Below, one piece after another: positions 1 to 21,458 of a stretch of DNA of 21,458 bases. The notes under the pieces were generated by a model that was not told the DNA's origin, did no database searches, and was given only the letters and a program-made list of their open reading frames with translations. The position numbers and the translations under genes are program-made. Positions within the stretch are counted from its first letter, which is position 1. Every line of letters starts with the position of its first letter. Source of the DNA: a virus; IMG/VR virus record IMGVR_UViG_3300031801_000030, positions 1 to 21,458 of that record, one strand, 5' to 3'.

Positions 1-610
1 TATTTGTTAATGCCTCTTTGAGGTATTTTTGGGCTTTTGCATCATTTCTAACTTCCGCCGCCAGTCCCTTCGCCTTTAATCCACCTTTTGTGTTTAAAAG
101 ATGTTCATAAATTGGCGTAGGATATGCCCCTGGTGCCGAAGGTTGGGCCACAACATCAACTGTTATGATTTCAAAGTCTGAAACCTCGCCACCACCGTAC
201 TCTGACATATTGCCAGAGCCACGAGAGCTAACGCCTAGTTTCACACCTGATTCCAACATTGTTTTGACAAGTTGGCCCATCGGTGTTGGCAAAATTTTCA
301 TTTTGCCGTATCCATTTGGTCCATCCATCCACATTTCTGTAATCATGTGAGACACACGGTCCAAATTAATTTTTAAATCGTCTGGATGATCTACTTCTCC
401 GAGAACTGAATAACCAGATGTAATCTGATCATTAAGAGTTTTCACTGCTTTTCCTATTTCGTTTACAGGATAAACTCTTTCATTAGCATTTTTGATCCCG
501 CCTTGAATACAAATACCTTTCATGTACAAATCCTTGCCTTCTTTTCCTTCATGCAAGACCTGTATTCTGGCTTGATTAAATGATAACTCTTCTCTAAGAT
601 ATATTGACAT
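1..610 (-). CDS. 21: Prohead core protease gp21 (partial, C-terminus off the left edge)
   Basis: This is the serine protease that matures the T4-type prohead by cleaving scaffold and capsid proteins inside the shell. The first 203 residues are visible, starting MSIYLREELS. Family hallmarks are GEVDHPDD around residues 71-78 (candidate catalytic His75) and GVSSRGSG around 126-133 (candidate nucleophile Ser128 or Ser129), followed by VVAQPSAPGAYP. Both blocks have the spacing seen in the T4 gp21 (peptidase S77) family. The ATG at 610-608 has a good ribosome site (AAGGAG on the minus strand). It is the last visible gene of the leftward head operon, 39 bases after the core protein gene, and no promoter is evident in that gap. 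The reading frame is open to the window edge, so only the end is missing. Identification is from recalled motifs, not a search. Confidence 0.9.
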   Translation of the reverse strand, partial: MSIYLREELSFNQARIQVLHEGKEGKDLYMKGICIQGGIKNANERVYPVNEIGKAVKTLNDQITSGYSVLGEVDHPDDLKINLDRVSHMITEMWMDGPNGYGKMKILPTPMGQLVKTMLESGVKLGVSSRGSGNMSEYGGGEVSDFEIITVDVVAQPSAPGAYPTPIYEHLLNTKGGLKAKGLAAEVRNDAKAQKYLKEALTN

Positions 611-649
611 TCTGACAATCTCCTTTTATTAAATCAACAATGCTGACAA

Positions 650-1672
650 TTATTTGCCGGCTACTGGTGATTTTGCAGATTTATCTGAACCATCTTTGGA
701 ATCGGCTTTCTCTTGCTTCTTAAATGAAGTAGATTTAGCTTTTCCACCTGTGTTCTCAAAATCGCCTGCTAGTTTGCCTGCTGTGGGTGCCGCTCGTCCT
801 TTATCTTCTGCGCCTGATCCAGTTTTAATTGGAGTTCCTGCACTTTTGATTTTCGGTCCACTTGATACTGGTGATTTTGCCGATTTGTCATCTCCGCCGC
901 TCATATCGCCTTTAACTGGATTTTTGTATTCTTTCACAGTTTCTTTTGCGTTTTCTTTAGCGTCTTTGGTTTCGAATCTAGACATTTCTGGTTGCACTTG
1001 TTGTGCTTCTGCAGGAATAACTGGTGCTAATGAAGTTTCTTCTTCTTCGCCATCACCGTTTTTGTCATTCATCATCGCTTCGAATTCTGCTTTTAGTTCG
1101 TCTAAAGCGTCTTCTAAATCAACAACTCTTTCTTCTACAGAACCGTCTTCACCATTTTCAGCATCAGCGTCCATGTCTTGACCTAATTCGTCGGCCGCCA
1201 CATCTGCTTCACCTTCTCCATCAGCTGAAATATCTTTGATTAATTCATCAGTAGCGTCGCCACCAACTTCTTCAATCGTTTCTTCATCTGTTTTTTGAAC
1301 TGGTGCAGATTTAGTATAGACTCCCTCATCTTTAATCTTTTCTTCTGCGGGTTTGTCTTCTACTGTTTCTTTTGCTTCTTCTTTGGTTTCTTCTGCTTTT
1401 TCGTCAGACTTTTCAGTTTCTTTAACTACTGATTCGTCTTTCTTGTCGTCTTCTTTAGCTTCTTCTTTAGTTTCGTCTTTAGTTTCTGTTGTAACAGCTT
1501 CTTGAGCTACTGGCGTTGCCGCTGTTGCTTCTGAATCTGCTAACCCTTCGTAGATGTCTCTAGACTTTTCTACTACTATTTCATGAAATAGTTGTTCTGC
1601 TTTATCAGTTTCTTCATTGATTAAAAGCTCTAACAACGATTCAAATTTATTTTGTTTAAGTTCGTTTGACAT
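650..1672 (-). CDS. Acidic prohead core/scaffold protein, gp67-like
   Basis: It probably forms part of the internal core on which the head assembles. The N-terminal 40 residues (FESLLELLINEE, then KAEQLFHEIVVEKSRDIYE) look like the helical start of T4 gp67. They are followed by a very long Glu/Lys/Asp-rich low-complexity stretch, an acidic helix around residues 180-215 (VVDLEDALDELKAEFEAMM) and a Lys/Ser/Gly-rich tail. The octapeptide DKSAKSPV occurs twice near the C-terminus. At 340 residues it is several times longer than T4 gp67 (about 80), so gp22-like scaffold function may be merged in or it may be a distinct core protein. ATG 1672 is preferred over the GTG at 1678 because AAAGGAG lies about 9 bases before the ATG but only 3 before the GTG. 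Position between portal and protease matches T4 gene order (20-67-68-21). Confidence 0.65.
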   Translation of the reverse strand: MSNELKQNKFESLLELLINEETDKAEQLFHEIVVEKSRDIYEGLADSEATAATPVAQEAVTTETKDETKEEAKEDDKKDESVVKETEKSDEKAEETKEEAKETVEDKPAEEKIKDEGVYTKSAPVQKTDEETIEEVGGDATDELIKDISADGEGEADVAADELGQDMDADAENGEDGSVEERVVDLEDALDELKAEFEAMMNDKNGDGEEEETSLAPVIPAEAQQVQPEMSRFETKDAKENAKETVKEYKNPVKGDMSGGDDKSAKSPVSSGPKIKSAGTPIKTGSGAEDKGRAAPTAGKLAGDFENTGGKAKSTSFKKQEKADSKDGSDKSAKSPVAGK

Positions 1673-1701
1673 TTGCACGTGCTCCTTTATTGTGGCAAGT
1701 T

Positions 1702-1709
1702 TACTTATA
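1702..1709 (-). promoter_or_regulatory. Late-promoter-like box TATAAGTA
   Basis: The minus strand reads TATAAGTA, one base from the T4 late consensus TATAAATA, about 30 bases upstream of the gp67-like ATG and followed by a strong AAAGGAG ribosome site. It lies in the 103-base gap after the glycosyltransferase-like gene, so it could boost expression of the core protein and protease. The one-base difference and the AT-rich background keep confidence moderate. Confidence 0.4.
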
Positions 1710-1775
1710 AGTGTATTGTATTTACAAAAGATGGGGAAAAAGGTACCTATATTTGGCGAAAAACCGTTCTTTTAG

Positions 1776-2399: not shown

Positions 2400-2441
2400 A
2401 ATGTATAGTAATTATTCTGTTTTGCTAAAGGGTATGTTAAA

Positions 2442-2681: not shown

Positions 2682-2696
2682 ATCAGTATTTAACCC

Positions 2697-4427
2697 TTAT
2701 ACAGGTGTTCCTCCACTACCGCCCGGTATGACACCTCCACCGCCTGGTGTTTGTCCTGGTTGTCCGGGTTGTCCTGGTCCTGGTTCTGGAGAGTCTGGGT
2801 CTGCTGTTGGTTCTTCAAATTGGTCTAGATCTGAAGTAATGCCTGATTGTGATACTCCGCCACCTCTTAATTGCGATTGTTTACTTTGTTTTTTCTTAGG
2901 TATAGCATTTTCTTCTGCCCACAAGTCAGCATTTCTTGCCATTTCTTCTTCACTTAATCCTAAATATCTTTTTAACGCAAATCTTTTTGACATATATGGT
3001 AGTTCTGCTACCTGTGTAAATGTACCTACCCTACTTTGATCCATTTCAGTTTGTCTATATGCCGCAAAGTTTTGTGGTGGATTAAGTTTTAATTCAAACA
3101 TACCATTGTCAATGTTATAACCTTTGCTTTTAATCCATAATTTAAATTCTGAATCAAATGATTCTTTTAACATACTTTGTAATCTTGCACAATATTTGTT
3201 AAATCTTAATTCTTGTATGTAAGCAGTACCTACTCTACCATCATTATATTGTTGCCCACCATCTTCCGCACCAGTTGGCAAATATGAACTTGGAATTCTT
3301 AATCCTCTAAACAATTTGTTTGTAAAAAATCTTAAATCGTCTATTTCACCTAAATTAGTACCACCTGGCAGTGTATCAACTTTAGATCCTCTTCCTTCTG
3401 CTGTTTGCGGAAAGAAATAATCCTCATTAATGCTCATAGGATTATATGTTGCATCAATATAGTTGACACCACCTGATGTGCTTGGAATTCTTCTTTGATT
3501 AATTTCGTTTTTAACTCTCTCAACGAATTGCATAGCCAAGTGTGTTGGCATATTACCTACGTCAATATAAAATACTCTTCTTTCAGGTGCTCTTTGAACC
3601 CTGTAAATGATAATTGCATCTTCTAATAATTCTTTTTGTTTGTAAACTTTGAAAACTTGTTCTAATACTGATTGTCCAAACGGAAATAAGTTGTCTAACC
3701 CATCTGACATTGACATATGAATAACGTTTTCTGCACCAATGGCATATTGATTCATTGTTCTGTAGAATCTTCCACCAGTTGCTCCAGCAAATCCTGACAT
3801 ATCAGAACCTCTACCAGCACCTGCATAACTTTGTGAGTATGCCGCAGTACCACCACCTGTAGTTCCACTACCACCAAACGTTTGATTTGGTGTTATTGAC
3901 GTTACAGATAATTTTTGTAAGTTTGGATTAATATCTCTAATAACATATTGTTCGGGTTTTTTGCCTTCAGATTCGTTAACAATGATTCTATCTATTTTTG
4001 CCGCGTCCATATACAACCATTTTAGTGTTTCTGGGTCTCTTACAAAAAAGCAATCTCCATATTTTAACGCATTTCTGAAAATTCTAAAAATTCTTTTATT
4101 AAATTTGTTTGCCTGTGTCCATTGTTGAAGTGCTTTTTTTAAAAGTTTAACTTCGTGTTCAGTTGTTTCATCTTTGAATACTAAATCAAATGGTGTTTCG
4201 TTTTCTGTGTTAGATTGTGTAGAAAATTCTGCTAGAATATCTAGTGCCGCATTAATTTCACTGTCTGAATCCATTTGGTCATATTGAAAATATCTTTGAA
4301 TTCTGTTTGGATGTCCTGTATAAACATCAGGTAGGTATGATGAATAGTTTCTTTTTGCGAAATTAGGCACTTTTTCACCACTAATTGGTGATAAGTTGGC
4401 ATCTCTAAAATATTTTTTCCAAGACAT
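2697..4427 (-). CDS. 20: Portal vertex protein gp20
   Basis: It forms the dodecameric portal at the head vertex, through which DNA is packaged and to which the tail joins. The 576-residue length is close to T4 gp20 (about 524). Typical features are the N-terminal SYLPDVYTGHPNRIQRY, the stretch DSDSEINAALDILAEFS (residues about 54-70), the central YRVQRAPERRVFYIDVGNMP and the LPGGTNLGEIDDLRFF region, all well conserved in this family. A Gly/Ser-rich loop lies around residues 184-222. The last 35 or so residues form an unusual Pro/Gly-rich tail with GQPGQPGQ repeats. It lies 39 bases downstream of the tape-measure gene, with no late box in that gap, so the two are probably co-transcribed. Confidence 0.95.
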   Translation of the reverse strand: MSWKKYFRDANLSPISGEKVPNFAKRNYSSYLPDVYTGHPNRIQRYFQYDQMDSDSEINAALDILAEFSTQSNTENETPFDLVFKDETTEHEVKLLKKALQQWTQANKFNKRIFRIFRNALKYGDCFFVRDPETLKWLYMDAAKIDRIIVNESEGKKPEQYVIRDINPNLQKLSVTSITPNQTFGGSGTTGGGTAAYSQSYAGAGRGSDMSGFAGATGGRFYRTMNQYAIGAENVIHMSMSDGLDNLFPFGQSVLEQVFKVYKQKELLEDAIIIYRVQRAPERRVFYIDVGNMPTHLAMQFVERVKNEINQRRIPSTSGGVNYIDATYNPMSINEDYFFPQTAEGRGSKVDTLPGGTNLGEIDDLRFFTNKLFRGLRIPSSYLPTGAEDGGQQYNDGRVGTAYIQELRFNKYCARLQSMLKESFDSEFKLWIKSKGYNIDNGMFELKLNPPQNFAAYRQTEMDQSRVGTFTQVAELPYMSKRFALKRYLGLSEEEMARNADLWAEENAIPKKKQSKQSQLRGGGVSQSGITSDLDQFEEPTADPDSPEPGPGQPGQPGQTPGGGGVIPGGSGGTPV

Positions 4428-4466
4428 AGTTTATTTTACACTTTTTTGTAGCAAATAACAAGACAT

Positions 4467-6605
4467 TTATGCTTGAAGTACCTGTCCACTAACATTTTTT
4501 ATGTTCCTATATGTTCCTTCAGTAGATCTAGCAATCTTACTATTAACACCTACAAGCATATTTACACTATCTACCATGTTTGTTAGCTTTTTATTTGTAG
4601 TGGTTAATTCTGTTACCATACTGGCCATTTTAGTTTCTAATGGCGTAATGTTTAGTGCAGAATTAAGATTAGCATTTGATGTAACTGAACTTGCTACGTT
4701 TGGTGTTATTATTTCCGGTCCTCGTTCACCTGTAAGATATGGAACACCTGAAGCCATAGCACCACCAACATATTTTTCACCACCTACCATTCCACCAACG
4801 GCTGATCCGGCCATATTTCCTAGTGTTGCACCTAGCATAGCACCACCTGGTCCACCTAAAAAGAATCCAGCTATTCCACCTAATACTGAACCAGCTAAAC
4901 CTCCCCAAGATGAATTGTCATTTGATTTGTCGTCATCTACTAATCCAGCAACACTCATACCTGCTGTTCCAACTGCTCCAACGGCGCCGAGTGCTAATCC
5001 CATTCCTGAATTTAATCCACCTTTAATTCCGCCACCCATTCCACCAAACATTCTAGAACCCATCATACCTGCCTTGGTTCCCATATACACTGCTGTATAA
5101 GTTGGTAGTGTGTCTTTTAATAAATTTAATCCCAATCCTGCAATAGTTTTTGAACCGTATAATATTGCTTTTGTAAAATCTGATGTACCTGTAATAAATT
5201 TGTCAGACAGATCTCCTATTGAACCTACTATGCTGTCAGTTCCTTCACCGCCCAACCGACCTAACATACTATAAAATCCTGTTTCTAAACTTTGTGTTGC
5301 CGCTGATAATCTTTTTGCATTTTCTTGAAATTGCATTAATGAAGATGTACCACCTGCAATGGCAATCCCTTGTTCTTTTAATGCCGCTACCTGATCTAAT
5401 GTTAATCCAGCTAAGGCAATAATTCCAGGAGTTAAAGCTGTGAATTCTACTTGTCCAGTTGCCGCCGCTTTACTAAATCTATCTAAAGATTTAACTGACA
5501 TATTTTTCATTTGTACTAAAGCCTGTTCAGAATTTATTGTTCCAGAAATTAATGACCTAACTGTTTTTTGTACTTCTGGAAAATTCTGTACAAGCATCAT
5601 AGCGGCATCAGTTACAGGAACTCCGGCATTAGCAATTAAGTCTTCCATACCTTCACTTAACATTGGAGATACTGATCCTATTGTAGCGGCAAATCCTGAT
5701 AACCTTCTTTGAGTATCATCGTCTTGTGTTCTTATAAAAGCGGCAAATCTAGCATTTGAGGCTTGTTGATCTAATTGAGCACGAAGTTCTGATCTTTGTT
5801 GACCTGTTAATTTTGCTAATCTATCAAGTTCTTTGGCAAAATTTGCGGCACTTTGCACTCTTTGTTGATTAGTCAATTGATCAAAGATACCTGTTCTTCT
5901 TTGTCTATCTAAATTTGTTATTAGTGTTTCATTAATTTCGTCGACTGTAAAACCTAAACTAGCTAGTTCTGGAGTAGCTTGAGTTCTTAATGCTTCTCCT
6001 AATCCAGCAATACCTATAGCACCTTTAGTAGTTGTTCCGTAAAGTGCGGCTAGTGTTGTTGAATTATCTCTAACCAATTTAGCAAAGTCATCTAATGGCA
6101 AAGCGGCCATTGCCGCGGCATTTCTCATTTGTACGATAGACTGATTAAAGTTACCACCAACTTCAGATAGTCCTCTAAATGTGTCGGCATTGACGTCAAA
6201 TGTTTTACCAAGATCTGCAATAAAATTTAAAACTTCACTACTACCTCGTAAACTTTCAGTAAATTCACTTATTGATCCTGTACCTGCATATGCGGCTGAA
6301 CCAAATCCTCTTAAACTAGATCTAACTGCTCTTACACTGTCGTTAAGTTCAGAAAAAGAGTCTCTAATCTCTTTTAAATCTTTATCTAATTCTTTGTAAC
6401 CTTTTCCTTCTTTTGTTAACGATTTAACTATTTTTGATCTGTTTGTATTTTCTAGTGTTTGTAATTTAACACCTTTCTCATCATGAGCAAGTTTTTGTAA
6501 AGCTAGTTTTCTTTGTTTACGAGCATCGACGCCGCCTGATATTCCTCCTAAGGCTTTCTTAATTTCTTCCCCTAATGCTTTTATATCTCCGTCGTCCATC
6601 GCCAT
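4467..6605 (-). CDS. Tail tape-measure protein (gp29 functional equivalent)
   Basis: It probably sets tail length and occupies the tube lumen. The 712 residues have a charged helical N-terminus (residues 1-100), a long helical middle with QQRVQSAANFAKELDRLAK, a Gly/Ala-rich hydrophobic zone (about 495-620) and the motif GERGPEIITP at 626-635, which is common near the end of phage tape measures. At roughly 1.5 Angstrom per residue it would give a tail near 107 nm, in the range of T4-like tails. It is the first gene of the leftward operon, behind a late promoter at 6669-6676, and is divergent from gp26/gp51. Tail chaperones next to a tape measure fit the lambda-type arrangement. Direct similarity to T4 gp29 is not obvious by eye. 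ATG 6605 is chosen over ATG 6599 because AGGA lies upstream at a usable distance. Confidence 0.75.
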   Translation of the reverse strand: MAMDDGDIKALGEEIKKALGGISGGVDARKQRKLALQKLAHDEKGVKLQTLENTNRSKIVKSLTKEGKGYKELDKDLKEIRDSFSELNDSVRAVRSSLRGFGSAAYAGTGSISEFTESLRGSSEVLNFIADLGKTFDVNADTFRGLSEVGGNFNQSIVQMRNAAAMAALPLDDFAKLVRDNSTTLAALYGTTTKGAIGIAGLGEALRTQATPELASLGFTVDEINETLITNLDRQRRTGIFDQLTNQQRVQSAANFAKELDRLAKLTGQQRSELRAQLDQQASNARFAAFIRTQDDDTQRRLSGFAATIGSVSPMLSEGMEDLIANAGVPVTDAAMMLVQNFPEVQKTVRSLISGTINSEQALVQMKNMSVKSLDRFSKAAATGQVEFTALTPGIIALAGLTLDQVAALKEQGIAIAGGTSSLMQFQENAKRLSAATQSLETGFYSMLGRLGGEGTDSIVGSIGDLSDKFITGTSDFTKAILYGSKTIAGLGLNLLKDTLPTYTAVYMGTKAGMMGSRMFGGMGGGIKGGLNSGMGLALGAVGAVGTAGMSVAGLVDDDKSNDNSSWGGLAGSVLGGIAGFFLGGPGGAMLGATLGNMAGSAVGGMVGGEKYVGGAMASGVPYLTGERGPEIITPNVASSVTSNANLNSALNITPLETKMASMVTELTTTNKKLTNMVDSVNMLVGVNSKIARSTEGTYRNIKNVSGQVLQA

Positions 6606-6635
6606 ATGGTTTTAATTCCTATCATTATCTACGCA

Positions 6636-6676: not shown

Positions 6677-6686
6677 GATATAAAAA

Positions 6687-7541
6687 ATGGTAGAAAACAC
6701 AAACCCTTTAAACAAGTATTTTAGACAGCCCTCTGTATATGTAACGTTACCATCGGGTGGAGCATATCCTCCACACGTATTAACGCCATCTGAAACAGGA
6801 GAAGTAGGTGTACAACCAATGACTGCTCGTGATGAGATTGTGTTTAAAACACCAGATGCATTAATGAATGGTCAGGGCATGGTAGATGTAATCCAGAGTT
6901 GTATTCCAGCAGTTAAAGATGCATGGCAAATTAGCAATTATGATTTAGATTCAATATTAATAGCGATACGTATTGCCACGTACGGTGAAACTATGGATAT
7001 TAATTTTAATGTTCCGGGCACAACAGAAAAAGCAGATCATACATTAAATTTACCAGCATTGTTAGACCAAATTAAATCTGCTACGGTAAAAAATGAAGTT
7101 GTGTTAAAAGACGGATTAAAAATTGCAGTAAGACCGTTAACATACAAAGACATGACTACTACTGCTCTCCAAACATTTACGCAACAAAAATTATATTCAA
7201 CAGTACAGAACGCAGATATGGCTCCAGAAGAAAAAATAAAAAGATTTAACGAAAGTTTTAAAGCATTAACTGAGTTAAGTCATACTATCCTGTTAAAAAA
7301 TGTTTCTAGTATTACTATACAAGATGGTACAGAAGTCACAGACCCCGCACAAATAAAGGAGTTTGTAGAAAAAGCGAATGCAACACTAATAAAAGAGTTG
7401 CAAGATAAATTAATTGAACTGAGAACTCAAGGTGCAGTACAACCTATAAAATTAAAAGCAACCGAAGAGCAGATCAAAAAAGGTGCACCAGTTTCCTATG
7501 AGATTCCGGTAACATTTGATACTGCAAATTTTTTCGTATAA
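6687..7541 (+). CDS. 26: Baseplate hub/tail assembly chaperone gp26
   Basis: This is a T4 gp26-family protein (T4_baseplate family), needed for assembly of the central tail hub. The 284 residues contain the family signature KYFRQPSVYVTLPSGG (10-25), QPMTARDEIVFKTPDALMNG (43-62), VIQSCIPAVKDAW (68-80) and ILIAIRIATYGE (90-101). Related phage proteins, as I recall them, carry a CxxC zinc-ribbon-like turn after this; here the site reads NVPGTTEKADH, without cysteines. No clear ribosome site precedes the ATG, only an A-rich stretch. It ends ANFFV-stop over a run of six T, where a -1 slip would continue into gp51. It is first in a two-gene operon behind the late promoter at 6636. Confidence 0.9.
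   Translation: MVENTNPLNKYFRQPSVYVTLPSGGAYPPHVLTPSETGEVGVQPMTARDEIVFKTPDALMNGQGMVDVIQSCIPAVKDAWQISNYDLDSILIAIRIATYGETMDINFNVPGTTEKADHTLNLPALLDQIKSATVKNEVVLKDGLKIAVRPLTYKDMTTTALQTFTQQKLYSTVQNADMAPEEKIKRFNESFKALTELSHTILLKNVSSITIQDGTEVTDPAQIKEFVEKANATLIKELQDKLIELRTQGAVQPIKLKATEEQIKKGAPVSYEIPVTFDTANFFV
7526..7535 (+). promoter_or_regulatory. Candidate -1 ribosomal frameshift site joining gp26 to gp51
   Basis: In the gp26 frame the codons AAT TTT TTC are read just before GTA TAA. The bases form two overlapping slippery heptamers, A AAT TTT (7526-7532) and T TTT TTC (7529-7535), and the stop is 4-7 bases downstream. The -1 frame is open from 7520 through the gp51 stop at 7765. A slip would give gp26 residues 1-282 plus 77 more, about 359 in all. 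No strong downstream hairpin was seen. Confidence 0.5.
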
Positions 7542-9645: not shown

Positions 9646-10593
9646 ATGTTATACGACCCGAAAAAAATTAAAGTTTACTACACTGCTGGTACATTCGGAC
9701 ACTTTATTGCATATCTTTTAGAAAGTCATATTAAAGGAAAACTTTTACCAGTTCCTCTTACAGAGCTTGGTAATAGTCACGGATACAGAACATATGGCAC
9801 AATAGAAGAGCACGACATTACTGGCGATACTGCTATGAAAAGCTATAAAGATACTAAACACGATGATAACAGTATTGGAATTATATGGCCAGCAGAAATG
9901 TTTGCTTATTGTTTACACGCCTCGATCTCAAGAACAAGGACAGAGGACCAAAAAGACGGAATAAAAGAATTAGAAAATGATGCATATACGTTTTTAAAAA
10001 CTAATGTAGGAGAATATTGGCATCTTCTTAGTAAAGATTTAGAAACAATGTATAATTTTAAAATAACAGAGAGAAATAAACGAGTTCCTCGTAGTGTATT
10101 AAGACAGTATTATTTCTTTCAATTTGCTATGCAAAATCAGAACAGATTAACGATACTTAATCAACGTATTAAAAATAATAATGCATTAACTAAATTACCA
10201 ATTGCAATTATATTAGATTATGAATCATTAAGAGATTTTTTACAAACAGTCACCGGTAATAATTTAGATTTTAGAGACTTACACGATGATTTTATTAGAT
10301 TAAACAGATCCTTAAAAATGTATAATGAAATAAAACAAATAACAGATGCAGTAAAACGTAAAGAAAACGTACCAATTAAAAATTTAGATTGTGTAACAGA
10401 AGCAGGCATATTTTTTGAACTAGAAACATATTTTTACGATATTCCTTTTCATAACATTCCAAAATTTTTTAAAACTACTGTAGATATAATAATGTATGTC
10501 GAAACGTTCCCAACCTTTATGAAACAGCCAAACCAATTATTCCAAAAGAAACTACATAAAACAATTAGTAGGAGAGACCATGACTGGTTTTAA
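9646..10593 (+). CDS. Unknown protein with sulfotransferase-like outline
   Basis: The function is unknown. The 315-residue protein starts with KVYYTAGTFGHFIAYLLES (residues 9-27), a strand-glycine loop-helix unit. It later has IAIILDYESLRDF (around 186-198) and DFRDLHDDFIRLNRSL (around 207-222). The general order (N-terminal G-x-x-G-x-F loop, then a D/E-Y-E-x-L segment, then an N-rich helix) is reminiscent of phage sulfotransferase-like proteins, but the key PAPS-binding residues cannot be assigned, so this is only a hint. It overlaps the GIY-YIG-like gene by 14 bases and probably shares its message. No recognisable ribosome site precedes ATG 9646. Confidence 0.6.
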   Translation: MLYDPKKIKVYYTAGTFGHFIAYLLESHIKGKLLPVPLTELGNSHGYRTYGTIEEHDITGDTAMKSYKDTKHDDNSIGIIWPAEMFAYCLHASISRTRTEDQKDGIKELENDAYTFLKTNVGEYWHLLSKDLETMYNFKITERNKRVPRSVLRQYYFFQFAMQNQNRLTILNQRIKNNNALTKLPIAIILDYESLRDFLQTVTGNNLDFRDLHDDFIRLNRSLKMYNEIKQITDAVKRKENVPIKNLDCVTEAGIFFELETYFYDIPFHNIPKFFKTTVDIIMYVETFPTFMKQPNQLFQKKLHKTISRRDHDWF

Positions 10594-11076: not shown

Positions 11077-11280
11077 TTACGCCGCTGTTGCCGTCGCAGT
11101 TTTCGCCGCGTTTTTTGCCTCTTGAATTTCTTTTCTTCTTAGTTTGATCAATTTTGACAAAGCCGCTAATGCTTTTCTGGCTCTTGTTGCCGAAGCTTTA
11201 ACACCTTTTTCTACAAACTTTCCGTTTTCTTCAGAATAGTTTTGAATCTCTGTCATGATCGATTCGTGTGTTTGTGACAT
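11077..11280 (-). CDS. Histone H1/Hc1-like small DNA-binding protein
   Basis: This 67-residue Lys/Ala-rich protein probably binds DNA without sequence preference. The core, residues 20-54 (from GKFVEKGVKAS through RARKALAALSKLIK to LRRKE), follows the pattern of the chlamydial Hc1 family (EKGNKAAAQRVR-like, then a basic helix). The tail AAKTATATAA is Ala/Thr-rich. A good ribosome site (GGAAGGA) lies 8 bases before the ATG, and a strong terminator lies just beyond the stop, so it is a short, independent and probably well-expressed unit. Its Ala codons include GCC and GCG despite the AT-rich genome. Similar small proteins occur in marine T4-like phages as I recall. Candidate roles are packing or protecting phage DNA, or host nucleoid effects. 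Confidence 0.65.
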   Translation of the reverse strand: MSQTHESIMTEIQNYSEENGKFVEKGVKASATRARKALAALSKLIKLRRKEIQEAKNAAKTATATAA

Positions 11281-11887: not shown

Positions 11888-12674
11888 AAAATTACATCCT
11901 ATAAATGATGCATATTTAAAAAGTGTTAAGCAAGAATGGTTTAGTAAACAACACCCAAATCCATCAAGGGAAGAATTTATTGAACAAGCTACTACTTGGT
12001 TTAAGTCTACAAAGTTAAATCAGTTACATGGGTGGAATGCATTTCCTTATCATGATATTATTATTGGGTGTACGAACTATATTGAATCAACGTGTTTAAG
12101 ATACAGTTGGAAGATACAACATTTGCCTAACGAATATGCTTATTATTCTGTTATGGGAAAACAACCAACACCAGTTGGTGAGCTAAAAGAGAATATTCCT
12201 TTAATTATAAGTTTACCTGTATGGCAACATTGTGATATTCATGAGAATTGGGAAGAAATTTTAAAAGAGTGTGAACAAAAGAATATCGATATTCATATAG
12301 ACGGAGCATGGTTTCAGTCAGCTAGAGATATTAACTTTAATTTTGATCATCCTAACATTAAATCATTTGCTATGAGTATGACTAAAGGACTTGAGTTAAA
12401 TTGGAATAGGGTAGGTATTAGATGGTCCAAACAACGAACAATGGATTCTATTACTTTGCTTAATAACAAAAATACGTATGGTGAAAATATAACTGCTTGT
12501 GGTTCTTTTTTAATGTCTAAAATTGAAAAAGACTATGCTTGGAACAAATATAAAAAAGAGCATATAAGATTAGCAAAAGAACATAACTTATTACCTACAA
12601 ATAGTATTCATGTTTTGCGAGATAATAATACTGTATATGGTATAGGAAAAATTTTAAGTAAAATTAAACAATAA
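11871..12674 (+). CDS. PLP fold-type I (aminotransferase-like) protein, reduced size
   Basis: Tentatively a pyridoxal-phosphate enzyme. In 267 residues it shows the order expected of fold-type I enzymes. GCTNYIES (66-73) may be a cofactor-phosphate loop. IDIHIDGAWF (139-148) offers Asp144 for the pyridine nitrogen. SFAMSMTKGLELNWNRVG (165-182) offers Lys172 as Schiff-base lysine and Arg180 for phosphate. It is about 100 residues shorter than usual aminotransferases, so it may be a minimal, degenerate or non-catalytic version. It overlaps the oxygenase-like gene by 17 bases, and its 3' end overlaps the convergent gp46 end by 11 bases. The partner suggests a two-step modification, but the substrate is unknown. 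Confidence 0.45.
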   Translation: MSDITKKLHPINDAYLKSVKQEWFSKQHPNPSREEFIEQATTWFKSTKLNQLHGWNAFPYHDIIIGCTNYIESTCLRYSWKIQHLPNEYAYYSVMGKQPTPVGELKENIPLIISLPVWQHCDIHENWEEILKECEQKNIDIHIDGAWFQSARDINFNFDHPNIKSFAMSMTKGLELNWNRVGIRWSKQRTMDSITLLNNKNTYGENITACGSFLMSKIEKDYAWNKYKKEHIRLAKEHNLLPTNSIHVLRDNNTVYGIGKILSKIKQ

Positions 12675-14439
12675 TCTCAACGTCATTTGCATAGTTTGTA
12701 AACCCATTTTCTTTTACAACTTTTAATACTGAATCTACTCTAGAAATTAGTTCATCTTTATGAGATATTAAGAAAATATTCTTTTGTTGAGTTCTACTCA
12801 TATCTTTTAATACTGCCATAGCCGACTCAACACCAGATAGATCCATACCAGCGTCTACAAGTTCGTCAATAAACAATAAGTTGATCTGTTGATAAAGTGA
12901 TTCCCAAACATCTCTAAATGCCCAACTTAAACTTAAAATTAATCTGTTTCTTTCACCTCTACTTAGATTGTCAAAATCTAAATCTCTACCTAGTTCTTCA
13001 ATTTGTACAGTTAAGTCACTTTGGAAAGTAACTGTGTGTGGTAATTTTACTTGTCCTAAATAATATGCTAAACGTTGATTTAAATATGTTAAGTTTTGTT
13101 CAATAATTCTTGTTCTTATAAATGAGTCTTTTGCTGTTAACAGTTTATATAAAAAGTCTTGGTGCCTGTTTAGGTCCTCCATCTCATTTATTTTTACATA
13201 GCTAACTTTTTGAATAGCACTTTTCTTTAACTCTGTAATTTGTTCTAAATATGGGTCTTGTTTAGACTCTGTTTGTGTTAATTGTCTTTTTAAATCTGCT
13301 AAAGATCCTTTATGATTATATGCTTCATCTATATTATCATAATAAGTGTCTGGCACTAAACCTAAATCTCCAATTGCATCAACATTGTGTTGCACATTTG
13401 CAAGATCACTTTTTAATTTTTCTGCATATTGTTTAGATTCGGTTAAAGTTGAATTTAATTCGGTTACTAAATGTTCGTGTTTATCGTCGTGTAGTTCTTG
13501 TCCACACGTTGGACATTTAGCATCATTGGCAAATTCTAAATCTTTTTCAGTTTTTCCAACTTGCGTTTGTGCCTTGGTTAAAGAATCTTCATGATATGCT
13601 TTTTCTTTTTCTAAATTTCTTAACGTTTTTACGTCATCGGTATGTTTTGCAAGTTTTTTGTGTGTTTTTAGTTCTGCATTAATATCTACTTTTTCTAGTT
13701 CTGCTATTGCAGTTGTAAAATTTTTATTGTCTTCGTCTTTTTGTGTTTGCCATGCACTACTTCTTATTTTTAATGATTCAATTGATTCTTGTATTTTTTC
13801 ATTAGAAGCAATCCTAGAATCTATTTTTATTTTTTCTTCGGCTATTTCTGTTTTAGTTGCTTTTTGTTGTTCTTTAAGCAAGTCAGCTTTTTGACTTAAT
13901 AGTGTTATGCCTAATAATTGTTCAATAATTTCTCTTTGTTCTGCTTGTTTAGTTGCAAGAAATGGTTGTGTATATGTGTTTAACGCAATTATGTTTTTAA
14001 ACATAGCATGGGTCATACCAAGTAATCTGTTTATTTCTTTTTGTGTTTCTTTATTTTCCCCTTGTGCCTCATTTGAATCTATATTTTGTTCAATATCATT
14101 TGCATAAAATCTTAATTTTTGAGGTTTTCTTCCACGTTCAATTGTATAAGTTACATTGTTTTTTATAAAGTTAGTAGAAACCGACATTCCTCTTTCGTTA
14201 GTTTTGTTTACAAGATTGTCTCTTCTAATGTTTGTTAATGCCTCACCATAAAATACATAAGATAATGCATTAATGATTGTAGTTTTACCAGTACCATTTC
14301 TTGCACCAGCATCATCCCCGCCCAAATCCAAATTCTCACCTAGTACTAAAACTAAATGTTTGTTATCAAACGTAATTGCTTGAGCTTGATTGCCTACGCT
14401 CATAAAGTTTTTTACTGTAAGATTTTTAATTACTAACAT
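12664..14439 (-). CDS. 46: Recombination endonuclease subunit gp46 (Rad50/SbcC-like ATPase)
   Basis: It is the ATPase of the gp46-gp47 complex, which resects DNA ends for recombination-dependent replication. The 591 residues (T4: 560) hold Walker A GARNGTGKTT (45-54), long coiled-coil arms (about 180-300 and 320-450), the zinc-hook CPTC at 309-312, the ABC signature LSRGERN (492-498), Walker B LLFIDE (521-526) with catalytic Glu526, and the switch His in ISHKDE (about 558-563). All key residues are present. It overlaps the gp47 gene by 14 bases and is the last gene of the gp55-gp47-gp46 operon. Its stop overlaps the convergent PLP-like gene by 11 bases, with no terminator visible between them. 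Confidence 0.95.
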   Translation of the reverse strand: MLVIKNLTVKNFMSVGNQAQAITFDNKHLVLVLGENLDLGGDDAGARNGTGKTTIINALSYVFYGEALTNIRRDNLVNKTNERGMSVSTNFIKNNVTYTIERGRKPQKLRFYANDIEQNIDSNEAQGENKETQKEINRLLGMTHAMFKNIIALNTYTQPFLATKQAEQREIIEQLLGITLLSQKADLLKEQQKATKTEIAEEKIKIDSRIASNEKIQESIESLKIRSSAWQTQKDEDNKNFTTAIAELEKVDINAELKTHKKLAKHTDDVKTLRNLEKEKAYHEDSLTKAQTQVGKTEKDLEFANDAKCPTCGQELHDDKHEHLVTELNSTLTESKQYAEKLKSDLANVQHNVDAIGDLGLVPDTYYDNIDEAYNHKGSLADLKRQLTQTESKQDPYLEQITELKKSAIQKVSYVKINEMEDLNRHQDFLYKLLTAKDSFIRTRIIEQNLTYLNQRLAYYLGQVKLPHTVTFQSDLTVQIEELGRDLDFDNLSRGERNRLILSLSWAFRDVWESLYQQINLLFIDELVDAGMDLSGVESAMAVLKDMSRTQQKNIFLISHKDELISRVDSVLKVVKENGFTNYANDVEIIV

Positions 14440-15448
14440 CTAAATTATTATAAATTGCCATTAATATGTTTCTATCGTATGTTTCAGAATCAACACCTTC
14501 TAATTGTTTTAAAACAATTTGGTCCACAGAATCAAATTTTTGTACTTGCACTAATGGTTGTTGTGCTCTATCGATTTGTTCAGGAATTAATTGTAATTCT
14601 CTTAATTGGTATTTTTCTATAAAAGTTTCTCTTATAAAATTTGCTTCTTCGTATGATATTTTAATATTTAATGTTACTCTCACGTACATTTTTGGTTTTA
14701 ATATTTTTTCTGGATCTGCAAGGAGTTCAGATATTTTAATTGTTCTATATCTTGGCATATCCGGCCAATTAATATATTTTGGTTCTCCACCCCATTCTAA
14801 TATCATCATGCCCCTTTCATCGTCCCAAGCATCTGCGTAATTGTGTGGAAACGCATTACCAATATAAGTTACATTTTTATTTGTTTGTCTTTTATGGAAG
14901 TGTCCTGAAAATACTTTTTCACATCCAGCAAAGTGTTCTGTTTTAATTGTGCCAATATCAGGCATATCTACCATTGCATTCATTTTAAAATACGGAAGTT
15001 CAAAGTGTCCAAACACATATCTCTTTTTCATTTTTGTAATAGTTTTCCATTCGTTTTCTACAATCCATGGAATAATTGCAATATCTTCTTCTTCTATCCA
15101 TTTGTTTACTATATGGACATTAGGAATATTTCTAATGTATTCCATAGAATTAATTTCTCTTTTATCTCTGTAAAATAAATCATGATTGCCCATGATAACA
15201 TAAACATTTTTAAATGCTTTTCCTAATCTTTCAATATTGGAAACTGTGTAATTCATTGTAGAAAAATTGGTTACTGATCTGTGATGATGCCAGTCTCCTA
15301 GGAATATACAAGTTTCACAATTGTGTGCTTTAGCTTGTTCCATAAACCAATATATAAATGCTTCACAATCATCGTTGTGTACACGTGAATTACCTTTTAA
15401 TCCAAAGTGTATATCTGTAAAACAAGCTACTCTATTAAAAAATGTCAT
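14426..15448 (-). CDS. 47: Recombination endonuclease subunit gp47 (Mre11/SbcD-like nuclease)
   Basis: It is the metallophosphoesterase nuclease partner of gp46. In the 340-residue version (T4: 339) the phosphoesterase motifs run in order: DIHFG (Asp12, His14), FLGDWHHH (Asp52), MGNHD (Asn88, His89), FGHFE (His148) and SGHFHKR (His183, His185). Together these make the two-metal site. The start at ATG 15448 is preferred over GTG 15454, because it overlaps the gp55 stop as ATGA, a classic coupling arrangement, and gives the family length. The C-terminal part should bind gp46. Confidence 0.95.
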   Translation of the reverse strand: MTFFNRVACFTDIHFGLKGNSRVHNDDCEAFIYWFMEQAKAHNCETCIFLGDWHHHRSVTNFSTMNYTVSNIERLGKAFKNVYVIMGNHDLFYRDKREINSMEYIRNIPNVHIVNKWIEEEDIAIIPWIVENEWKTITKMKKRYVFGHFELPYFKMNAMVDMPDIGTIKTEHFAGCEKVFSGHFHKRQTNKNVTYIGNAFPHNYADAWDDERGMMILEWGGEPKYINWPDMPRYRTIKISELLADPEKILKPKMYVRVTLNIKISYEEANFIRETFIEKYQLRELQLIPEQIDRAQQPLVQVQKFDSVDQIVLKQLEGVDSETYDRNILMAIYNNLDVSN

Positions 15449-16428
15449 TTCCACTTTTTCTTTTCAGGAGGTATATGATTAGTCATGTCTATTTCTTTAT
15501 ATCCCACAGAGTCAAAATCTTTTGTTTTTAATTGCCCTTTTTTACGGAATGCTCGATTAAGTTTTATTAATCCTGTTTTGTTTACAGTTTTAACTGGACC
15601 GTGTGCAGTTAACATACGTTTTTTATAAGCCGTTGTATTAATTGAATTAGTTAGTTGTCTAGTAGATGAAGGCATCATGTGATGTTGCTCTAATATATCA
15701 TCACGTATATTTTGATTTTTCTTTTCAATGTTTAAAATTCTTGTAAAACTATTTGTAATTGCCGCAGTATAATATGCAAACGGATTCTCTGATTTGCTTT
15801 CATCAAACTGTAAACCAATTTGTGATAGTTGCATTAATGCTTGTGATTGCATTTCATCATTGTAAGTATACCCTCTCCAGTTTGCTCTTGTACCATAACG
15901 TTCACACAATTTCATAAACATCATTGCTAAACTGTTTGTAATTTTTCCATATACGCAATCAAAATGTCCATTGGACAATCCACCTACCCAATGTGATTTA
16001 CCTATACATTTTGTTTTACCTTTATTATCTAAACGGTAATGTTGGAACGGAGGAAAATTACATTTAGTATGCCTATCAGCAACAGATTTTGGATTCTTTT
16101 TTCTACCTGGTTCTAACGGTACATGATCAAACATCATTACTCTAAACACAAGGTCAGTTTTATGAATTTTTCTTGTGCTAACTGTGTAATCACTTAATTT
16201 TATTTTTTTTAATCCACTATCCTTAGCTTCTTGCCAAGCTTCTTGAGTTAATCTTTTTGATTTGTTTTTTCTAGCCTGTGCTATGGTGACAGCATTAATT
16301 TTTTTAATATTAGGTACAATTACATCATATCGTGCATCGTCGTCGACGACATATGAACAAAATGTATTTTTACTGGCGTGTATTTGTGCCAACAGATCTC
16401 GGTTGTTTAAGTATTTCACTCTCTTCAT
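15445..16428 (-). CDS. 55: Late-transcription sigma factor gp55 with a large insertion
   Basis: It directs host RNA polymerase to TATAAATA late promoters. The N-terminus KYLNNRDLLAQI (5-16) matches the start of T4 gp55. The sigma-region-2-like core lies at about 164-245: TNSLAMMFMKLCERYG, NWRGYTYNDEMQSQALMQLS, FDESKSENPFAYYTAAITNS and RILNIEKKNQNIRDD. Between these, residues about 25-163 form an insertion absent from T4 gp55 (185 residues), with DRHTKC (118-123), C141 and H146 that could hold zinc. The C-terminal HIPPEKKKWK lacks an obvious hydrophobic clamp-binding tail like that of T4 gp55. ATG 16428 has a weak AAGAG ribosome site. It is the first gene of the gp55-gp47-gp46 operon and is divergent from a late promoter it would itself use. 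Confidence 0.85.
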   Translation of the reverse strand: MKRVKYLNNRDLLAQIHASKNTFCSYVVDDDARYDVIVPNIKKINAVTIAQARKNKSKRLTQEAWQEAKDSGLKKIKLSDYTVSTRKIHKTDLVFRVMMFDHVPLEPGRKKNPKSVADRHTKCNFPPFQHYRLDNKGKTKCIGKSHWVGGLSNGHFDCVYGKITNSLAMMFMKLCERYGTRANWRGYTYNDEMQSQALMQLSQIGLQFDESKSENPFAYYTAAITNSFTRILNIEKKNQNIRDDILEQHHMMPSSTRQLTNSINTTAYKKRMLTAHGPVKTVNKTGLIKLNRAFRKKGQLKTKDFDSVGYKEIDMTNHIPPEKKKWK

Positions 16429-16522: not shown

Positions 16523-16566
16523 TGTTTAAAGTATACAAAATTTAACAAGGAAATACAACCAGAAAA

Positions 16567-17723: not shown

Positions 17724-17725
17724 TA

Positions 17726-20242
17726 ATGGACAATGAACCGTTTATTACAAAAAAAACTACTAGGCAAATAAAAGATGAGTTAGAGAACGTAATTTACGGA
17801 CATAACGTTGGACCAAATTCTGTAGAAGGTCTCATACTTGATTATGGCCAGTCCAACGCGACGACACAAACAGACGGCCTATCCGTAGCAGTTCCTTTGG
17901 AACATGATGAGACACCAGAAAACATAAACCCATTACATAAGTTTGCTAGTTATAATACTTTATTCACACTATCAGCATTAACAGATGAAGAAATTAGAAA
18001 CCCATTAAAGTATCTTCAAGGCCCAGTGCATGATGTTATAGCACAAAGCGCCGGTATAGGACCAAACTTTAGGACAGCAGGCCTAGACCCATATAATATA
18101 GGGAAGAAAAAGGGTGTTGACAAATATGCCGCGGACGCAGAAAAAACAGCACAAGGATTTGATACAATTTCTGCATCGCAAGAAATACTAGAAAGAAATC
18201 ATGATTTATTTTTTGAGAATGTTAATATAACTTCAACAGTATCTCCAAATGAAGAAAGAAATACAATGAGTTTTACAAAAATGGATTTTGAATTGCATGA
18301 ACCATATAGTATAACATTTGTGGAGAGAATAAGAGCCGCCGCATACAATAGTGGTTTTTTAGATTATCAAGATGCACCGTATCTATTAACCATAGAATGG
18401 AAAGGCATGAACCAAAGTGGCAGGGTCGGTATGCCAACAAACCAAGACAAACTTACAAATGGATTTTCAGGGGACCCAAATGATACACTAGTTAGAAAAA
18501 TACCTATAGTAATTGCTCGTGTTGAGTTTGATGTAACTGCCGGTGGGGCAGTATATCTAATACAAGCCGCGGCATATTCAGAGTTTGGTATGATGGATAG
18601 ATTCCATCTGACAAGAAATCCTTTTACAATTGCAAAATCAAAATTACAAGCATGGTGCAAGAATTTTGCATTAGAAATGCAAAATCAACAGGAAACAGAA
18701 GCGAATCAAGGTTTAAGGTCTTTTGGATATGAAGATGTATATGTATTTGAATTTGATAAGAAATTAAAGAACCTAATGCAAAACCTAAGGGCGACGGAAG
18801 AAACAACGACTTATGGTACGACTTATGGTTCAACAGAACAAAGTGATAAGGCTCTAGATAACAAAGCAAATCCAGGGTCTGAAAGCCATCCTAAAAAGTC
18901 TGATGCCAAAGAAGCAGGAGGTAATGCCTTTAATGTTCTTAAGACAGAGGTTCCTGCAAATACATCGGTTCTAAAAGTAATGGAAGATACTATAATGTCA
19001 TCGAAGTTTTTTCAAGAACTCACAAGCGATTTTTGGTTAACATATTTAGATGGTGCTCAAATATTAAGTGATGAGACTAAAGGAAAGCACGGCTGGAGTG
19101 AAGCCGACATAAAAGCCGGAGTACCTTTTAAAAAAGACAATGCAGATGCACTTGCTAAGGTAACTGCAAATAATACAATGATCCCTTGGTTTAAAATTAT
19201 TAGTACGGTGCATACTAATATTGATAAAGGAATAGACCCAATTACTAGAATGTATCCTAAAACTATTATATACAAAGCAATATATTATGAGTTTCATATT
19301 TTAAAATTAATAATGCCTGGTATGAGTATAGGAAAAGTTAAGTGGGAAAAAACAGTTCAAAAAAGATACAACTATTTCTATACTGGAGAAAATGTTGATA
19401 TACAAAATTTACGAGTTAATTATAAAACAGGATACTATCATAGAAATATTATTGCTAAACCAGATTCTTTGCAGACGAAGATTGTAGATACAATAAAAAG
19501 AGGATGGCAAGTTATATACGGGGAAGACCCAGAAGAAGTAGAGCTATCAACATTAAGATCATATCCTTCAATAACTCATTCAAAGAATTTAGTGTCAAAC
19601 ACAAATCACAGAGAAGCGATAAGAACACAGGAATTTTTTGATTATCTTATAAACCCAAATGCAGATATGATGAGATTAGAAATGGAAATTTTAGGAGATC
19701 CTTCGTATATTGCACAAGATATGTATGTTACTATTGATGGAAATGTAAAAGCAAGAAAACCCTTGAATATGTCTGATGGTGCTTGGAATGATCAATTAAA
19801 TTGTTTTAATGTAGATAATTCAATGCCTTTAATACACTTAACTTATAGAATGCCAGCCGATATAAGAGAACGTAAAGGTACTATGTTTGATACAGATGCC
19901 AACGGTAAAAAAACAGCCGAATCAAATTTATTCTTCTCAGGAATATACCAAGTAAGTAAAGTAGAAAGCAGTATTAAAAATGGAGCATTTACTCAGATAT
20001 TATTTTTAGTAAGATTAAACAATCAACAAGGAATTGGAAGTGCACCGTTTGTAGCTACTATACCTGTAGAGAAAAAATTAGAAACTAAAGCAGGAGATAA
20101 AACTACAATTAGAGACAATGAAGAAGCTTATGGAATCACAAAAGAAGTTACAGAAGGATTAAGTGAAAAAGATGACGAAAAAATGGACAACCTTGGCAAA
20201 AAACAGATTTTGGAAGGTAAAGAACCGTGGGAACTTGATTAA
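17726..20242 (+). CDS. Large baseplate hub protein, gp27-like
   Basis: It is probably the central hub on which the gp5 spike sits. The 838 residues are twice the length of T4 gp27 (391). Residues about 182-226 (TKMDFELHEPYSITFVERIR and YQDAPYLLTIEWKG) look like the first tube-like hub domain. Residues 735-765 (FFSGIYQVSKVESSIKNGAF then TQILFLVRLN) resemble the closing strands of the second hub domain. A long N-terminal extension (1-165) and a central insertion (about 330-500, with TTYGTTYG) account for the extra size. It lies between gp53 and gp5, as expected for a hub gene. Alternatives are a fusion with another wedge or hub protein. It starts 2 bases after gp53. Confidence 0.6.
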   Translation: MDNEPFITKKTTRQIKDELENVIYGHNVGPNSVEGLILDYGQSNATTQTDGLSVAVPLEHDETPENINPLHKFASYNTLFTLSALTDEEIRNPLKYLQGPVHDVIAQSAGIGPNFRTAGLDPYNIGKKKGVDKYAADAEKTAQGFDTISASQEILERNHDLFFENVNITSTVSPNEERNTMSFTKMDFELHEPYSITFVERIRAAAYNSGFLDYQDAPYLLTIEWKGMNQSGRVGMPTNQDKLTNGFSGDPNDTLVRKIPIVIARVEFDVTAGGAVYLIQAAAYSEFGMMDRFHLTRNPFTIAKSKLQAWCKNFALEMQNQQETEANQGLRSFGYEDVYVFEFDKKLKNLMQNLRATEETTTYGTTYGSTEQSDKALDNKANPGSESHPKKSDAKEAGGNAFNVLKTEVPANTSVLKVMEDTIMSSKFFQELTSDFWLTYLDGAQILSDETKGKHGWSEADIKAGVPFKKDNADALAKVTANNTMIPWFKIISTVHTNIDKGIDPITRMYPKTIIYKAIYYEFHILKLIMPGMSIGKVKWEKTVQKRYNYFYTGENVDIQNLRVNYKTGYYHRNIIAKPDSLQTKIVDTIKRGWQVIYGEDPEEVELSTLRSYPSITHSKNLVSNTNHREAIRTQEFFDYLINPNADMMRLEMEILGDPSYIAQDMYVTIDGNVKARKPLNMSDGAWNDQLNCFNVDNSMPLIHLTYRMPADIRERKGTMFDTDANGKKTAESNLFFSGIYQVSKVESSIKNGAFTQILFLVRLNNQQGIGSAPFVATIPVEKKLETKAGDKTTIRDNEEAYGITKEVTEGLSEKDDEKMDNLGKKQILEGKEPWELD
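18806..18829 (+). repeat. Perfect 12-bp tandem duplication in the hub gene
   Basis: ACGACTTATGGT occurs twice head to tail, encoding TTYG-TTYG in frame inside the low-conservation central insertion of the gp27-like protein. The exact match suggests a recent duplication, possibly by slippage. Confidence 0.85.
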
Positions 20243-20265
20243 ATGAAGAGTAAAATAAAATAAAA

Positions 20266-21458
20266 ATGGCTGATCACAGAGGAGACGTATCCAGTAAAGG
20301 ATTAAACACAGATTTAACATCTTATGTAAAAAGAGATGCTGGACCTTACCTAGGAAGAGTAAAAAGTACAGACGATCCATTAAGAATGGGAAGATTAGGT
20401 GTAAACATTATATCTCAAACTAAAAGATTAAATCCTACGTTCTCACAGCTAACATGGTGTAATTATCTTTCTCCTTTCTATGGAGCCAAAAGTAGAGACG
20501 CAGTTAGTACAACAAATGCATATCTTCCAAAATCTAATGGACATTCATATGGTATGTGGTTTGTACCACCAGATATTGATACAGACGTATTAGTGTTATT
20601 TGTTGAAGGAGAACAAAACGAAGAGAATGCATTTTGGATTGGTTGTGTACAACAACCAATGATGAATCATATGATTCCAGGACACGGTGCTAGTACCCAA
20701 GCTGTTGCACCTCCTCCGCCACCATCTTCTAAAACTACTACAGATTTATACGGTACAACATTTGTACCAGCTGGAGAAATAAACAGATACATTTGGGATA
20801 AAGCAACACCAGGAAAAATTGGAACAGGGTATTATCCAGTAAATGATACAAGTGCAGAGATATTAAAGGATCAAGGATTAATTAAAGATCCAATTAGAGG
20901 TACAACAACGTCATCAGCACAAAGAGAAGCACCAAGTCAGGTGTTTGGAATTAGCACACCGGGTAGAATTAAATCAGACAGCAGGACATCGCCAATAGAA
21001 TTAGCACAAGACGATTCTTATATACAAACCCCAACTGACAGAGACCCAGGGCATAGTTTTGTAATGGACGATGGTGATGTGAACAACCAAAATCAATTAT
21101 TAAGATTAAGAACAGCATCTGGACATCAGTTATTAATGCATGATACATCAGGAGTAGTATACATCGCTAATGGTTCAGGAAAATCATGGATAGAGATGAC
21201 AAAAGACGGCAAAATTAGTGTATACTCAGCTGATGGGATTAATATGAGAACTGAAGGTAATTTTGATTTGCACTCAGACGGAGATATAAATTTTCACGCA
21301 AAGAATCATATAAAATTTACAGCAGAAAATAATGTAACTTTAAATTCAGAAAATTATGTACAGGTTATAGGAGAAAATGGAATTTTAACTAGTTCACAAT
21401 CTGGAGTAGTAAAAACTTATGGCAAGGCAGGAATATCATCTTATACAGGTGGTGGGCA
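20266..21458 (+). CDS. 5: Baseplate central spike protein gp5 (partial, C-terminus off the right edge)
   Basis: It forms the trimeric membrane-piercing spike below the hub. The 397 visible residues begin with an OB-fold domain: GPYLGRVKSTDDPLRMGRLG (26-45), then YGMWFVPPDIDTDVLVLFVE (95-114) and FWIGCV (123-128). A Pro-rich linker (149-153) and a long loop follow. PGHSFVMDDGD (261-271) then opens a VgrG-like repeat region with alternating short strands (SGHQLLMHDTSGVVYIANG, DGINMRTEGNFDLHSDGDI), typical of the triple-stranded beta-helix. The lysozyme domain that T4 gp5 carries between OB fold and beta-helix is absent: the linker of about 120 residues is too short and has no catalytic motif. 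The ATG follows the hub gene by 23 bases. The frame is open to the window end. Confidence 0.9.
   Translation, partial: MADHRGDVSSKGLNTDLTSYVKRDAGPYLGRVKSTDDPLRMGRLGVNIISQTKRLNPTFSQLTWCNYLSPFYGAKSRDAVSTTNAYLPKSNGHSYGMWFVPPDIDTDVLVLFVEGEQNEENAFWIGCVQQPMMNHMIPGHGASTQAVAPPPPPSSKTTTDLYGTTFVPAGEINRYIWDKATPGKIGTGYYPVNDTSAEILKDQGLIKDPIRGTTTSSAQREAPSQVFGISTPGRIKSDSRTSPIELAQDDSYIQTPTDRDPGHSFVMDDGDVNNQNQLLRLRTASGHQLLMHDTSGVVYIANGSGKSWIEMTKDGKISVYSADGINMRTEGNFDLHSDGDINFHAKNHIKFTAENNVTLNSENYVQVIGENGILTSSQSGVVKTYGKAGISSYTGGG

Follow-up and report, generated by a model that had tools for sequence, protein, structure and literature searches.

The sequence GCWGC (GCAGC or GCTGC) is completely absent from a 21,458-nucleotide stretch of viral DNA, IMG/VR record IMGVR_UViG_3300031801_000030 (hereafter the window, meaning the whole stretch), and from most of its close relatives. 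Its genes mark the window as part of a T4-like myovirus that has PA5oct and Phosso as distant relatives; genes of this record are cut at both ends, which makes it a fragment. The loss is total in the window; in its lineage it follows descent, is reversible and takes the form of W-to-S replacement, and in many of the contigs without GCWGC (avoiders) it is paralleled by the loss of other restriction-type sites. Type II restriction by the host, directed at GCWGC, is very probably what drove the loss.

A direct count over positions 1 to 21,458 returned no GCAGC and no GCTGC on either strand, which confirms the absence claimed in a preliminary description of the window and leaves no missed sites. 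The 82 GCAG/GCTG tetramers (49 GCAG and 33 GCTG) are followed by T (37), A (27) or G (18) and never by C, and GCSGC occurs 37 times (26 GCCGC and 11 GCGGC); both totals repeat exactly those first reported. Expected numbers of GCWGC sites were 10.9 by base composition, 16.9 by an order-2 Markov model and 15.6 by a maximal-order Markov model. Synonymous-codon shuffling of 22 open reading frames (ORFs) in the window predicted 26.8 sites, with a minimum of 18 over 2000 shuffles, and the same ORFs held 35 GCSGC as against 8.9 ± 2.6 after shuffling. GCWGC is under-represented against Markov and codon models alike, as in site avoidance. By deviation, GCAGC/GCTGC was the most strongly depleted of all 5-mer reverse-complement pairs of the window, and in a scan of 4-base, W- or S-centred 5-base and 6-base palindromes every other palindrome with an expectation of at least 10 stayed at or above 0.12 of that expectation.

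The loss is most easily seen where alanine codons adjoin. In all 33 Ala-Ala pairs the first codon is GCG (19) or GCC (14) and never GCA or GCT, whereas 332 of 394 Ala codons before other amino acids are GCA or GCT (GCA 224, GCT 108, GCC 40, GCG 22). This rule had been proposed in the preliminary description and holds without exception, and the four stretches offered there as examples are indeed written with GCC or GCG. At 6103 to 6120 Ala codons ahead of GC take these forms (GCGGCCATTGCCGCGGCA), and at 18335 to 18343 Ala-Ala-Ala is encoded without GCWGC as GCCGCCGCA.

Relatives were gathered from IMG/VR with four baits (portal protein, gp46, a DNA polymerase taken from a zero-GCWGC contig, and a transporter), keeping the best 80 loci of each; loci of one bait lie partly on contigs already found with another. 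The portal bait gave 38 zero, 8 intermediate and 34 normal loci, the gp46 bait 61, 3 and 16, and the transporter bait 59, 5 and 16. Among the closest relatives the zero state was nearly uniform. All 39 loci with gp46 identities of at least 77% were zero (522 sites expected; some of these loci are near-copies or lie on one contig), as were 27 of 30 with portal identities of at least 78% and 78 of 80 with DNA polymerase identities of at least 93%, the last set having 2 sites where 578 were expected. A normal GCWGC frequency elsewhere in the lineage was looked for and was not found: sixteen long avoider contigs had no site against 55–186 expected apiece. Three of these span 196,581 bases (0 of 156 expected), 184,930 bases (G070; 0 of 186) and 138,715 bases (0 of 133), and the other thirteen were counted over stretches of 53–104 kb each. 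After 106 zero loci were cut to 95 by shared 31-mers, with five overlapping loci excluded, the pool comprised 1,155,753 bases with 0 GCWGC against 1,299 expected; its loci were chosen for zero counts (from the first two baits and early contigs), and the figure shows specificity and not frequency. The next most depleted 5-mer pair in this pool, among pairs with an expectation above 20, stood at 0.50 of expectation. The G+C content of zero loci ranged from 0.33 to 0.49.

What acted at the lost sites is selection against a DNA word; neither biased mutation nor the choice of codons explains the change. One-base neighbours of GCAGC occurred in avoiders at 0.83–1.31 of the level in non-avoiders (47 loci above 0.7 of expectation, L091–L093 excluded), and the avoidance is in this sense specific to one recognition sequence. 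GCSGC stood at 1.31 times the non-avoider level, and GTAGC, the product of deamination of the first C, at 0.83. Non-avoider sites of twelve genes aligned to avoiders gave 850 non-independent pairs, with the same amino acids in 247, changed amino acids in 536 and gaps in 67. Single-base differences accounted for 150 of the 247 same-amino-acid pairs; 109 of these were W-to-S at the middle base and 37 were C>T or G>A at other positions. Coding GCWGC sites were mostly in phase 0 (Ala-Ala) in four of five site-bearing contigs (74 of 157 in G042), and the avoiders tested had no GCWGC in any phase or outside called ORFs. A general codon-context bias was sought and was not found, as relatives with the same proteins (portal identity 82–89%) have normal counts, and the codon shuffle, with its 27 predicted sites, likewise does not support one. 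Among GC-NN-GC hexamers in the pooled zero loci, GCAAGC, GCACGC, GCGCGC and GCCCGC were seen at 0.10–0.41 of the non-avoider level, and GCAGGC, GCATGC and GCCAGC at 0.94–1.00.

The zero state tracks lineage, yet it has been both gained and lost. In a 97-row tree built from gp46, with 59 rows zero, 31 normal and 7 intermediate, the zero label needs five changes, at least four of which are forced by starred branches, and six normal rows are grouped inside the main clade with 40 zero rows. This tree was made by a quick method, with long branches flagged by the tool, and it omits loci with an expectation below 4, gp46 matches covering less than 60% of the query, named duplicates and the pieces L175–L234. 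Both nested and neighbouring lineages have normal counts, and the GCWGC state therefore switches; the trait differs between close relatives that encode the same proteins. One 90-kb relative is evenly intermediate, with 41 of 146 expected sites.

These patterns are consistent with the action of a host restriction-modification system, which we infer to be the agent. The host enzyme would read GCWGC (TseI/ApeKI-type) or GCAGC (BbvI-type). One unmethylated site in an entering genome would pose a risk of cutting, and siteless mutants would be favoured until none was left. Ala-Ala would be kept by a change of the first codon's wobble base from A or T to G or C, turning GCWGC into a tolerated GCSGC, and lineages in hosts without the system would keep or regain their sites. 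ApeKI and BbvI are both assigned to this site. TseI/ApeKI-type and BbvI-type enzymes are indistinguishable here because GCAGC on both strands defines the same set of sites. GCWGC is a known type II site, the specificity of TseI being given in the part of PMC6329791 available. Cleavage of the BisI type, m5C-dependent and directed at GCNGC as the available parts of PMC4926085 and PMC8281217 describe it, was ruled out because GCSGC is abundant. Selection by restriction had been the interpretation in the preliminary description, and it has gained support: two sequence tests failed to refute it, other type II-like sites are also missing from many of the same contigs, and a handful of contigs from an unselected sample, outside the lineage, are likewise free of GCWGC.

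The other missing sites differ from contig to contig. AGCT is absent from five of the sixteen avoiders (0/323, 0/423, 0/237, 0/125 and 0/103), namely G078 (L441–L450), G070 (L451–L460), G021 (L175–L180), G024 (L195–L199) and G028 (L191–L194). AAGCTT, ACATGT, GCATGC and TGCGCA are gone from several avoiders in differing sets, and GTWAC is at 0/271 in G021. We take AGCT, AAGCTT, ACATGT and GCATGC to resemble type II restriction sites. The window keeps AGCT (40) and AAGCTT (3). Among seven GCWGC-normal relatives, the number of such motifs was zero in three contigs, one in a fourth, two in G073, three in G049 and seven in G071, in lists of at most eight motifs per contig; neither GCWGC nor AGCT was among them. 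In G071, a 237-kb contig with normal GCWGC, AAGCTT was at 3/98 and GAATTC at 4/36.

An unselected IMG/VR sample was drawn as 120 loci picked by a made-up 14-base word (L478–L597), of which 113 had an expectation of at least 4. Four of the 113 had no GCWGC, against 0.07 expected by Poisson. For two of the four, the full contigs were at 0/129 over 54.5 kb (G084, L605–L607) and 0/49 over 20 kb, and both have almost no protein in common with the avoider lineage. G084, which lies outside the lineage, also lacks CCWGG (0/133) and several 6-base palindromes. L526 is zero in the fetched stretch only, its whole contig being merely depleted (8/33), and L505 is at 0/22 over 8.6 kb, with a ribonucleotide reductase closest to that of a Roseobacter phage. 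L553, also one of the four, encodes a protein that matches T4-type tail-fibre families; the L553 contig may, on this evidence, be a distant T4-like phage, though none of the proteins of the sixteen lineage contigs had a match in it. Among loci with an expectation of at least 8, complete absence was found for CCWGG in 19/93, CCGG in 12/82, GATC in 8/118, GGWCC in 6/70, AGCT in 5/116 and GCWGC in 3/100. These frequently lost motifs resemble the sites of restriction enzymes, and among environmental viruses outright loss of such sites is common.

Complete loss of restriction sites is already known and common, and the window lineage is a clean and unusually complete case of it. In the available part of Rusinov 2018 (PMC6286503), avoidance is said to concern mostly orthodox type II sites, elimination is complete or almost complete in about one-tenth of viral genomes, and GCWGC is listed as avoided, falling below expectation in 66.3% of genomes. 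The window lineage resembles the non-temperate phages described there in the strong or complete loss of an exact type II palindrome with near neighbours kept; it differs in being uncultured, with contigs of up to 197 kb and 0 sites where 150–190 are expected. A search of literature on GCWGC, restriction-site avoidance and environmental methylomes, with subscription papers outside its scope, turned up no description that we recognised of the absence in this lineage. Methylation of the same sequence is known from uncultured Chloroflexi, reportedly of freshwater. It is an m4C modification at GCWGC by the methyltransferase M.AbaBS3I (PMC6329791); the recognition sequence is the same and the bacteria are uncultured, although in the part of that source available the methylation is given without a restriction-modification system, and no link to the window-lineage phages was found.

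Several observations weigh against host restriction as the cause. L009, with a portal identity of 89%, carries 8 sites against an expectation of about 8, and L022 and L036, also close relatives, carry GCWGC sites. The window and G002 lack GCWGC alone among the motifs tested, and the window, G002, G003 and G022 lack few or no further sites. Isolate phages of SAR11, SAR116 and the Roseobacter group (n=6 for the last) have normal counts in the stretches counted. Two scans of genome contigs with phage genes found no relative, and hence no host GCWGC methyltransferase or endonuclease was seen; one candidate host-derived gene had no relative among the phages or plasmids searched. Finally, the G+C range of avoiders, 0.33–0.49, suggests several hosts with one specificity. 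One specificity over several hosts is unusual; restriction systems are patchy. It is conceivable, if rather unlikely, that the GCWGC barrier is constant enough over the hosts of this widespread lineage, which probably differ in G+C, to bind the viral genome as a fixed constraint, reflecting either a near-universal restriction specificity in an abundant group of uncultured bacteria or a phage nuclease with self-immunity through absence of the sequence.

A phage-encoded GCWGC nuclease, directed against host or rival DNA and made safe by purging the phage's own sites in place of modification, is improbable. The absence is absolute over a wide G+C range and in several sublineages, which is what a constraint internal to the phages would produce, and the lineage carries a GIY-YIG endonuclease. 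This SegE-type gene is also present in relatives with normal counts, and as a phage-borne cause it was rejected, being found in avoiders and non-avoiders alike. No protein of G070 was shared by all of the nine further avoiders while missing from all five non-avoiders, in a comparison of incomplete contigs where a gene could be missed; the best avoider-linked candidate (6/9 avoiders, 0/5 non-avoiders) is a peroxiredoxin. Several sites missing in varying sets would moreover need several such nucleases. As to a phage-borne ALTERNATIVES, no PF00145, PF01555 or PF02086 methyltransferase was found in the avoiders searched, on incomplete contigs and with other methyltransferase families not searched. 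In avoiders and non-avoiders together, matches numbered 0/20 and 0/19 for PF00145, 0/44 for PF01555 and 1/19 for PF02086, and the sole PF02086 match among 19 records is a D12-type enzyme of the non-avoider G071 (140147–140848, L604).

It is very unlikely that a phage DNA modification blocks most restriction enzymes and misses GCWGC, leaving this as the one vulnerable site. Early regions of avoiders encode parts of 7-deazaguanine pathways: a GTP cyclohydrolase I and a radical SAM protein resembling QueE, joined in several avoiders by a transporter of the preQ0 type. However, a TGT-type transferase was found in 0/43 records, QueC in 2/43 (an isolate phage and, below the cut-off, the non-avoider G042) and in no avoider, and a phmmer search with the Vid5 DpdA, made at E 0.01 on a protein set without G070 and G078, found no match, though a diverged DpdA may have escaped it. 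The transporter and, by similarity, the cyclohydrolase also occur in contigs with normal counts, and other sites are avoided too. A scheme of 7-deazaguanine modification with an uncovered site had been raised by FolE and the transporter in early regions and their absence from the non-avoider G049; it was dropped because there is no TGT, no avoider QueC, and the same genes are present in other normal-count contigs.

These genes have features of their own. GTP cyclohydrolase I, the QueE-like protein, the preQ0-type transporter, a phosphoribosyltransferase and an IMP dehydrogenase-like protein are clustered in L331–L332 (G058), L181 (G022) and L344 (G061); no QueC or DpdA was detectable in these three contigs, which leaves a partial deazapurine pathway. 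The transporter (YhhQ/Vut_1; L332:1487–2131 and relatives L358–L370) is 97–98% identical among avoiders, against a median identity of 65–84% for the other proteins shared by the same contigs. From its sequence it looks recently exchanged, and it is also common to another branch of the T4-like family. The transporter-sharing phages were considered as unrelated, independent avoiders, and this was rejected, as helicase and portal place the second group in that other family branch.

The host agent at GCWGC could also be a protein unrelated to restriction, by analogy with mismatch repair and its GATC sites, and siteless phages could profit. The phiX174 genome is a few kb long. It lacks GATC, which the available part of PMC5014478 ties to escape from post-replicative repair, and it is like the window lineage in that a short palindrome has gone entirely. 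The window-lineage genomes differ from this mismatch-repair case in being far larger and in missing several restriction-like motifs, and since the other lost motifs, AGCT, AAGCTT, ACATGT and GCATGC, look like type II sites, such a protein is a highly improbable agent. The last alternative, removal of the sites without restriction through a mutational bias (for example deamination of a methylated C within GCWGC) or a bias of tRNA or codon context, has next to no probability: the phase-0 majority in four of five site-bearing contigs marks a place where codon choice could act, but counts are normal in relatives that encode the same proteins, avoiders are zero in every phase and outside called ORFs, and neither the GTAGC level nor the minority of C>T or G>A differences fits deamination.

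The gene map supports placing the window among T4-like myoviruses related to PA5oct and Phosso: genes for a T4-type portal, a prohead protease, gp46 and gp47, a late sigma factor and baseplate proteins are found in shared order. At the left edge and cut by it lies a prohead core protease of the T4 gp21 type (Peptidase_S77; 2–610, minus strand; PF03420, E 5.3e-26), followed by a T4-type portal protein, gp20 (2697–4427, minus; PF07230, E 2.5e-107), which served as bait for relatives, and a putative tail tape-measure protein (4467–6605, minus; phrog_167, E 8.9e-10). A T4-type baseplate protein (6687–7541, plus; PF12322, E 3.5e-12) and the SegE-type GIY-YIG endonuclease (10580–11035, plus; PF19835, E 1.6e-35) come next. 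A small histone H1-like protein (Hc1; 11077–11280, minus; PF07432, E 3.4e-12) adjoins the gp46 region, and many relatives in both GCWGC states have a match to it. The recombination nuclease subunits are of gp46 type (12664–14439, minus; PF13476, PF02463), the bait for relatives and for the tree, and of gp47 type (Metallophos; 14426–15454, minus; PF00149, E 1.1e-7). A late-transcription sigma factor of gp55 type (15445–16428, minus; phrog_12791, E 6.2e-79) and a gp5-type baseplate hub protein cut by the right edge (20266–21456, plus; PF04717, E 2.5e-6) complete the map.

The nearest isolates found are jumbo T4-like phages, with portal identities of 45–51% among the 40 matches listed and gp46 identities of 43–48% to PA5oct, Phosso and Atu_ph07. 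Head, recombination and baseplate genes are common to the window lineage and PA5oct, Phosso, Atu_ph07 and 121Q, and in Phosso, PA5oct and 121Q the gene order around gp20 and gp46 resembles that of the window. The jumbo isolates differ from the window in their GCWGC counts, which are normal in 49-kb stretches of all six examined (Phosso, PA5oct, Vibrio phage 2.275.O, Atu_ph07, SCTP-2 and 121Q). Isolate searches with window-lineage genes found no cultured member of the avoider lineage.

The complete loss of GCWGC in contigs near 200 kb lies well past the small genomes in which purging seems easy. The signal could be used as a host marker, the prediction being that hosts of these phages both cut GCWGC by restriction and methylate it. 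Sets of lost sites would form a readable record, for each phage, of the restriction systems it has met, and paired avoider and non-avoider lineages would make it possible to follow how a restriction barrier is gained and lost.

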